From the NCBI GenBank assembly GCA_030682495.1, contig JAUXOC010000044.1, positions 1 through 35,070 on the forward strand: 35,070 bases of DNA, given 5' to 3'. This document shows positions 10,848-12,631 of the stretch, piece after piece. The stretch is from Alphaproteobacteria bacterium (lineage in GTDB: Bacteria > Pseudomonadota > Alphaproteobacteria > Micavibrionales > UBA2020). Made by a program: the position numbers and the translations under genes. Under the pieces are notes generated by a model. It did no database searches. It was not told the DNA's origin and saw only the letters and a list, made by a program, of their open reading frames with translations. Numbering within the stretch: position 1 is the first letter of the stretch; each line of letters starts with the position of its first letter.

Positions 10848-11465
10848 ATGCGCAGCGCGCCGTCATTGTTCAGCAGCGGGCTGTGGTCTGGCCGCACGGT
10901 CGGGCTTTTGGGCGGGTCGTTCAACCCCGCGCATGACGGTCACCGGCATATCAGCCTGATGGCGCTGAAACATCTTGGCCTTGATGCGGTGTGGTGGATG
11001 GTCAGCCCGCAGAACCCGCTGAAATCGACGCGTGATATGGCACCGCTGGAACAGCGCATGCAAAGCGCCCGCCGCGCCGCGCGACACCCGCAAATTGTTG
11101 TGACCGATATCGAAACGCAGATGAACACGCAGTACACCGCCGATACGCTGGCGAAACTGCGGCAGTATTTTCCGCGCACAAATTTTATCTGGCTGATGGG
11201 CACGGATAATTTACGGCAGGTGCACCGCTGGCAAGACTGGCAGGATATTTTCAGCCGTCATGCCGTCTGCGTCCTTGACCGCCCGCCGCGCGGCAACAGC
11301 CTGAAATCCTGCCCCGCGCTGGAGCGTTACCGCCACCGGTTGATCCCCGAAAGCGCGGCGGCAGACCTTAAAAACCGCAATCTGCCGGCCTGGACGATTC
11401 TACATATTCCGCTGAATAACCTCTCCGCCACCGCCCTCCGCGCGGCGCAAAAAGACGGTAAATAA
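10848..11465 (+). CDS. nadD: Nicotinate-nucleotide adenylyltransferase
   Basis: A 205-residue NadD makes deamido-NAD from nicotinate mononucleotide and ATP. It shows the nucleotidyltransferase signature GGSFNPAHDGHRHIS (23-37), VWWMVSPQNPLK, MGTDNLRQVHRWQDW and the C-terminal LSATALR, the equivalent of the ISSTxIR motif. The ATG at 10848 is preferred because it lies 5 nt after the putA stop and gives the standard length; GAGGAATAAGC at the end of putA is the ribosome binding site. In many alphaproteobacteria nadD is followed by rsfS, as here. Confidence 0.95.
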   Translation: MRSAPSLFSSGLWSGRTVGLLGGSFNPAHDGHRHISLMALKHLGLDAVWWMVSPQNPLKSTRDMAPLEQRMQSARRAARHPQIVVTDIETQMNTQYTADTLAKLRQYFPRTNFIWLMGTDNLRQVHRWQDWQDIFSRHAVCVLDRPPRGNSLKSCPALERYRHRLIPESAAADLKNRNLPAWTILHIPLNNLSATALRAAQKDGK

Positions 11466-11502: not shown

Positions 11503-11531
11503 TTGCCCCTTATTTCGGTTGGCGGTATAAT
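11503..11531 (+). promoter_or_regulatory. Strong sigma70-type promoter upstream of rsfS
   Basis: TTGCCC (11503-11508), a 17-nt spacer and a perfect TATAAT (11526-11531) predict a transcript starting near 11538. It lies in the 198-nt gap between nadD and rsfS and drives a leader containing an intrinsic terminator. This is the best-scoring promoter by eye in the window. Confidence 0.65.
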
Positions 11532-11562
11532 AAAAGCAGGATCAACAAGTCTGGAGCCGCCT

Positions 11563-11598
11563 TTGTGCGCACAAGAATTGTTTTATAACCGTATTTGA
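11563..11598 (+). other. Possible leader peptide in the rsfS leader
   Basis: A TTG codon at 11563 lies 6 nt after TGGAG and opens 11 codons (CAQELFYNRI after the start). They end in TGA at 11596-11598, exactly at the foot of the terminator stem. An overlapping GTG-started reading at 11565 is equally short. TTGTGCGCACAA (11563-11574) is itself a 12-bp palindrome, so the signal may be structural rather than coding. Confidence 0.25.
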
Positions 11599-11632
11599 CG
11601 CAAGGCGTTGAAACCGCGCTTGCGTCTTTTTT
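11597..11632 (+). terminator. Intrinsic terminator inside the rsfS leader
   Basis: GACGCAAG (11597-11604) pairs perfectly with CTTGCGTC (11619-11626), with further GCG/CGC pairing inside, and T6 follows at once. It ends about 20 nt before the rsfS ribosome binding site and about 95 nt after the predicted transcription start. CGCCTT at 11558-11563 can pair instead with AAGGCG at 11602-11607, a possible antiterminator. Confidence 0.8.
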
Positions 11633-11663
11633 GTTTGCTGACGAACCTTAAAGGGAGGCGATC

Positions 11664-12155
11664 ATCGCTACCACACCGAAAAAACCGGCCAAGAAAACCG
11701 CTGCCAAAAAACCCGCGCTGAAGGCCGTAAAATCCGCGCCCGCCAAAAAGCCCGCCGCTGCGAAAAAGACTCCTGCCCCCGCTCCTGCCGCTTCCACCGG
11801 CAGAGGCGTCGCGCTGCACGAGATGATCGTCAAGGCGCTGGATCAGGACAAGGGCGACAATATCGTCTCCATCGACCTTGCGGGCAAAAGCGCGCTGGCC
11901 GATTTTATGGTGATTGCCACCGGCACCTCTTCCCGCCATGTGACAGGTATGTCCGAAAAGCTGAAACAGCGCCTGTCCAAAGAAGGCATCATCGCCCGTA
12001 TCGAGGGTGCCAGCACCGGCGACTGGGTGATTGTGGATGCGGGCGACGTGATCGTCCATCTGTTCCGCGCCGAGGTTCGTACTTTCTATAACCTTGAAAA
12101 GCTCTGGGCCTCCGACTTCGCGACCATCGACTATACGCTTTACAAGTCGGTTTAA
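11664..12155 (+). CDS. rsfS: Ribosomal silencing factor RsfS, apparent ATC start
   Basis: RsfS binds ribosomal protein L14 (uL14) and blocks subunit joining. The conserved domain covers about residues 50-160, with the signatures ATGTSSRHV, GDWVIVDAGDVIVHLF and YNLEKLW. The reading frame opens after TAA at 11649-11651 and contains no ATG, GTG or TTG until 11823. That internal ATG would cut into the first helix (GVALHEMIVKAL) and has no ribosome binding site. Upstream, GGGAGG (11653-11658) stands 5 nt before ATC at 11664. The frame then continues as ATTPKKPAKKTAAKKPA, a Lys/Ala/Pro-rich extension with the codon bias of the gene. I therefore set the start at ATC, giving 163 residues; a sequencing error in an original ATG cannot be excluded. 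rlmH follows 26 nt on. Confidence 0.88.
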   Translation: MATTPKKPAKKTAAKKPALKAVKSAPAKKPAAAKKTPAPAPAASTGRGVALHEMIVKALDQDKGDNIVSIDLAGKSALADFMVIATGTSSRHVTGMSEKLKQRLSKEGIIARIEGASTGDWVIVDAGDVIVHLFRAEVRTFYNLEKLWASDFATIDYTLYKSV

Positions 12156-12181: not shown

Positions 12182-12631
12182 ATGAAGATAAAAATCATCG
12201 CCGTCGGGCGGCTCAAAAATTCGCCGCTGCGCGACCTCTGCGATGAATATATCAAACGGCTGGGCTGGCCGGTGCGCATCGAAGAAATCGACAGCCCCAA
12301 GGCCGCCACCTCGGCCATCGAAGCGCCGCTGATTTTAAAACACATTCCGGAAAACGCTTTCGTTGTCGCGCTTGATGAACGGGGCGAAAGTTTTTCCAGC
12401 CCCGCCTTTGCCGAAAAACTTTCCCGCTGGCGCGATATGGCGCCGGGCAACGAGATTATCCTGCTCATCGGCGGTGCGGACGGTTTCGATAAAACGGTGC
12501 GGGACAAAGCCAAGTTTTTGCTCTCGTTCGGCAAACAAACATGGCCACATATGCTGGTTCGGGTTATGCTGTTAGAGCAGATTTACCGTGCCCAGCAAAT
12601 CCTTGCCGGGCATCCGTACCACAGGGCATAA
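12182..12631 (+). CDS. rlmH: 23S rRNA (pseudouridine1915-N3)-methyltransferase
   Basis: RlmH has 149 residues, near the usual 155. It is a SPOUT methyltransferase that modifies pseudouridine 1915 in helix 69 of 23S rRNA in the assembled ribosome. Seen here: the start MKIKIIAVGRLKN, ALDERGESFSSPAFA, the S-adenosylmethionine loop LIGGADGF and the C-terminal knot segment HMLVRVMLLEQIYRAQQILA ending HPYHRA. It has no strong ribosome binding site. The envC gene starts 1 nt after its stop, so they are translationally coupled. Confidence 0.97.
   Translation: MKIKIIAVGRLKNSPLRDLCDEYIKRLGWPVRIEEIDSPKAATSAIEAPLILKHIPENAFVVALDERGESFSSPAFAEKLSRWRDMAPGNEIILLIGGADGFDKTVRDKAKFLLSFGKQTWPHMLVRVMLLEQIYRAQQILAGHPYHRA

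Follow-up and report, generated by a model that had tools for sequence, protein, structure and literature searches.

Within the window (the whole 35,070-nucleotide stretch of DNA that was analysed), a short leader with its own predicted promoter and terminator lies between rsfS and an upstream gene whose product we take, from family knowledge, to be NadD; rsfS is followed by rlmH. Features of this region are listed by position, with the basis for each call given last.

10848..11465, + strand: nadD, gene upstream of the leader (presumed product name); reading frame, predicted start codon
11503..11531, + strand: rsfS-leader promoter, TTGCCC-N17-TATAAT; kept as TTGCC-N17-TATAAT in relatives
11538..11632, + strand: predicted leader RNA, ~95 nt if terminated; 5' end inferred from the -10 box, 3' end from the T run
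11553..11556, + strand: GGAG, possible Shine-Dalgarno site for ORF1, 6 nt ahead of its TTG; sequence
11558..11607, + strand: proposed antiterminator, arms 11558-11563 and 11602-11607; pairing possible in the window, not conserved
11563..11598, + strand: putative ORF1, 11 codons from TTG to TGA, its stop overlapping the start of ORF2 (TTGA); order-like layout, sequence unlike genus-mates
11595..11651, + strand: putative ORF2, 18 codons from TTG to TAA, spanning the terminator; order-wide counterparts reach the rsfS start above chance
11597..11626, + strand: intrinsic terminator hairpin, -15.8 kcal/mol; covariation in relatives
11627..11632, + strand: terminator T6 tract; sequence
11653..11658, + strand: GGGAGG, rsfS Shine-Dalgarno site; aligned sites in relatives
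11664..12155, + strand: rsfS, predicted AUC start 11664-11666 (alternative AUC 11661); K/A/P-rich extension, then RsfS domain
12182..12631, + strand: rlmH, gene after rsfS; reading frame with ATG start

The promoter boxes (TTGCCC, 11503-11508; TATAAT, 11526-11531) are separated by a 17-nt spacer and match the consensus at 10 of 12 positions, and the terminator stem is formed by GACGCAAG (11597-11604) and CTTGCGTC (11619-11626). ORF1 (11563-11598) reads TTG TGC GCA CAA GAA TTG TTT TAT AAC CGT ATT TGA, with the palindrome TTGTGCGCACAA at 11563-11574 within its start, and ORF2 ends at 11651, 12 nt ahead of the AUC at 11664. The promoter with its 17-nt spacer, the short frame, the palindrome and the 8-bp terminator with T6 were all found where the original prediction had placed them, and the promoter and terminator are conserved in the order. 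Folded alone, the 95-nt leader RNA reached -26.1 kcal/mol (z -1.33, a mild stability) and gave no match to Rfam at gathering thresholds; since this stability is unconvincing and no Rfam family was matched, the case rests on comparison.

The rsfS frame opens after the TAA at 11649-11651, and the first ATG, GTG or TTG in it is the ATG at 11823, which lies on the border of the RsfS domain. A start at this ATG was rejected because it would cut the domain edge and drop an extension that is conserved in relatives. The ATC codons at 11661/11664 behind GGGAGG mark the beginning of a K/A/P-rich extension that the family conserves. In alignments with the genus-mates and with genus g2 it is the second ATC that matches, and the Shine-Dalgarno sites are aligned as well. 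Judged by these alignments, the most likely start of rsfS is the AUC at 11664 behind GGGAGG, a non-standard codon that went unremarked in the original prediction. The N-terminal extension itself (11664-11822) comprises ~53 residues, and its character is conserved in the family. The beginning of infC in the same genome (ATC GCT behind GGAG) is nearly identical to that of rsfS (ATC GCT behind GGGAGG).

Start codons were surveyed in the order Micavibrionales, where 92 of 94 genomes yielded an RsfS and 90 upstream regions were scored. Starts were called by Shine-Dalgarno scoring with arbitrary cut-offs, draft genomes were included, and about a dozen order start codons were corrected by hand after inspection. 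The best-supported start was AUU, AUC or AUA (AUH) in 64 of the 90 regions, AUG in 12, UUG in 11 and GUG in 3, all counts coming from related genomes and not from independent events. Across the class, one genome was taken per alphaproteobacterial family and 103 were scored. In 44 of these families a good Shine-Dalgarno site precedes AUA, AUC, AUU or CUG in rsfS and no standard start is comparable (8 of the 44 lack any standard start), in 17 the start is standard, and the remainder are mixed or ambiguous. As controls, rlmH gave 1 non-standard start in 78 with a caller of the same form, and infC in the same order gave AUH in 25 of 30 with an earlier, slightly different version of the caller; neither control run was tuned further. 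The likely start is CUG, not AUH, in several other alphaproteobacterial families (L176, L177, L191, L194, L198, L200). Outside the Proteobacteria, rsfS of three Vagococcus genomes (L124, L144, L162) has an apparent AUA or AUC start behind AGGAGG. No published report of rsfS with a non-AUG start or an attenuator was found among open-licence papers.

Promoter and terminator occur in the same places in 46 of the 64 order genomes with an AUH start versus none of the 12 with an AUG start, and a comparable terminator arose in 4 of 320 shuffled upstream regions of the same base composition. In family f3, 6 of the 9 stem pairs have changed on both sides while 93% of cells are paired, and in either percentage paired or covariation score none of 500 shuffles equalled the observed value; the six sequences of the window's own family point in the same direction, more weakly. 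Between promoter and terminator the leader sequence shows little conservation, even among members of the genus, while its distance to rsfS is kept. The original prediction had offered two outcomes, attenuation or release of a ~95-nt RNA. Attenuation is the better supported of these, given that the order conserves the promoter, the terminator and their spacing from rsfS and that the terminator stem covaries; the RNA may still arise as the terminated product. Attenuation is not essential, as 18 of the 64 AUH genomes have no recognisable terminator and some of them keep only ORF2.

Many AUG-start genomes carry a -10-like box directly ahead of the AUG. In genus g3 (L011, L014, L016, L018, L019) rsfS lies close behind nadD and its ATG is preceded within a few bases by a -10-like box; a leaderless rsfS mRNA has probably replaced the attenuator there. 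Among 37 rsfS genes with non-standard starts outside the order, a terminator was found in 1 and a leaderless frame in none; these counts suggest an attenuator confined to the order and an unusual start of greater age.

Small frames recur in leaders of the order. Of 80 leaders scored, 46 have an ATG exactly 6 nt downstream of the -10 box, as do most f3 leaders; ORF1 of most order members is predicted to be leaderless, beginning at the predicted 5' end, and such frames are mostly 13-20 codons long. In 27 of 50 leaders the ORF1 stop and a second start share bases (NTGA). The second frame crosses the terminator in most of the order, and in 31 of 50 leaders it reaches to within 25 nt of the rsfS start or past it, versus 10.05 ± 2.7 (maximum 17) in 200 shuffles of the intervening bases that kept only base composition. 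Because ORF2 is short and lies across the hairpin, its coding content is difficult to tell apart from constraint on the stem itself. In one genome (G005, locus L012), a leaderless ATG frame of 187 codons continues across the terminator and joins rsfS in the same reading frame, which could give a longer RsfS product.

At the predicted 5' end, the window and its genus-mates lack an AUG, and ORF1 of the window is led by GGAG instead of being leaderless. By this comparison, the window leader is a derived version that lacks the leaderless AUG and has only partly kept the order layout. The 11-codon leader peptide of the original prediction exists as a frame, and its TTGA overlap matches the order layout, but no counterpart of the same sequence was found in either genus-mate (G001, G002); a conserved 11-codon peptide was rejected on that ground. 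G001 has a frame that passes through the terminator and ends 17 nt before the rsfS start. Neither ORF1 nor ORF2 contains a run of one residue.

We consider it probable, though by no means assured, that the leader is a translation-coupled attenuator feeding an IF3-sensitive, non-AUG start of rsfS. The promoter, the terminator, the missing standard start, the two-frame layout and the conservation across the order are shown at the level of sequence; what we infer is where transcription starts, that both frames are translated, that ribosomes antiterminate and that IF3 exerts control. RNA polymerase would start near 11538. With the leader untranslated, the hairpin at 11597-11626 would form and transcription would stop at 11632, giving the ~95-nt RNA. 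Ribosomes that translate ORF1 and then, by way of the overlapping stop and start (TTGA), ORF2 could cover the hairpin when close behind polymerase, leading to read-through; one study (PMC4824070) reports that a ribosome near an intrinsic terminator, close behind polymerase, suppresses termination. Translation of ORF2 would also bring ribosomes to the rsfS start, where the AUC at 11664 behind a strong Shine-Dalgarno site is, as in infC, of the codon type that IF3 discriminates against. IF3 acts on unusual start codons and, when abundant, inhibits some leaderless mRNAs (PMC13009471; PMC9031893). RsfS binds uL14 and prevents association of the ribosomal subunits. Given the AUC start and the leader relay, RsfS output would track the state of translation initiation, which RsfS itself blocks. 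The arrangement suggests that rsfS may be made when translation of the leader does not lag and initiation permits AUH codons.

If the main effect were translational coupling, ORF2 would deliver ribosomes to a poor rsfS start and the hairpin would be incidental or a secondary damper. Some genomes in which no terminator is recognisable (for example G035, G054 and G069) do keep an ORF2 that extends to the rsfS start; the hairpin, however, covaries and stands at the same position in most of the order, and we regard coupling as the main effect as unlikely. That a functional ~95-nt small RNA is released and rsfS is read by leakage seems improbable. Such an RNA could come from a promoter with a terminator behind it, and a new RNA family would be compatible with the data, but the lack of an Rfam match at gathering thresholds speaks against it, as does a leader sequence that drifts within the genus while its distance to rsfS is kept. 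A small RNA as the main product was rejected because of that drift.

Two further readings concern the hairpin and its proposed competitor. CGCCTT (11558-11563) and AAGGCG (11602-11607), which the original prediction paired as an antiterminator, are reverse complements in the window, and their duplex (-12.4 kcal/mol) was equalled in 24 of 1000 shuffles; in both genus-mates the pairing is not conserved and reaches only -7.0 kcal/mol. Covariation had been proposed as a check on both pairings; the terminator stem covaries, but the antiterminator duplex is weaker in the genus-mates. A conserved antiterminator was rejected for this weakness, and a genuine ligand- or peptide-controlled one confined to this species, for which the duplex energy in the window speaks and the genus-mates do not, is highly improbable. 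Least probable of all is that the hairpin terminates nadD and the internal rsfS promoter is coincidental. nadD does lie just upstream in the window and many relatives, with nadD-like frames in most (tblastn); yet leader and terminator are retained at two loci (L009, L012) where no nadD was found in the 1.5 kb upstream, and relatives with nadD directly upstream and an AUG rsfS start lack the terminator.

Returning to the translation-coupled attenuator, a more elaborate dual sensor can be put forward tentatively, as a possibility that we doubt. A leaderless ORF1 read by undissociated 70S ribosomes would open the terminator by relay, the AUH start would be used when IF3 is limiting, and RsfS, by blocking subunit joining, would lower its own synthesis. 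On this view the infC principle would have a second example in the non-AUG starts of rsfS, one that extends across the class.

Little has been described of how cells control the level of RsfS, a conserved factor that blocks subunit joining. If rsfS starts with non-AUG codons across the Alphaproteobacteria, its translation would fall under the same discrimination as that of IF3, and annotation pipelines limited to AUG, GUG and UUG would misplace the RsfS start. The cell probably makes RsfS only according to how its ribosomes start translation, and the order-specific relay of frames through the terminator offers a testable link from ribosome state to synthesis of the ribosome-silencing factor.

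The closest likeness for the start codon is the autoregulated infC (IF3) of E. coli and others, in which a strong Shine-Dalgarno site precedes AUU, AUC or AUA in a gene of the translation-initiation machinery, and which has an AUC start in the genome studied here; in the window no AUG, GUG or UUG lies ahead of the conserved RsfS protein. The differences are that the gene here is rsfS, that its start is predicted, that other families have CUG and that the order adds an attenuator leader. That leader has the marks of an attenuator, with a promoter and a Rho-independent terminator before the gene and a terminator structure under selection, as its covariation indicates. In attenuation of the pyrBI type, the leader frame runs through the terminator. 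The rsfS leader is alike in that a frame (ORF2, 11595-11651) spans the terminator and stops close to the structural gene, so that a translating ribosome would block the hairpin; it differs in having two overlapping frames, the first often leaderless, a non-AUG structural start and no known nucleotide signal. An amino-acid attenuator of the trp/his type was rejected, there being no regulatory run of residues and no conserved alternative stem.

The E. coli rsfS gene also has a weak start codon, UUG (PMC10917681); it differs in that no leader attenuator is described for it in the papers searched. Leaderless mRNAs are familiar in the Alphaproteobacteria, with 375 in Caulobacter (PMC4117421), and ORF1 of most order members appears to be of this kind, although here it would be a regulatory upstream frame and the window itself is without the AUG. 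Compared with these systems, the rsfS arrangement appears to combine known kinds, an attenuator and an infC-type start, in a new form.
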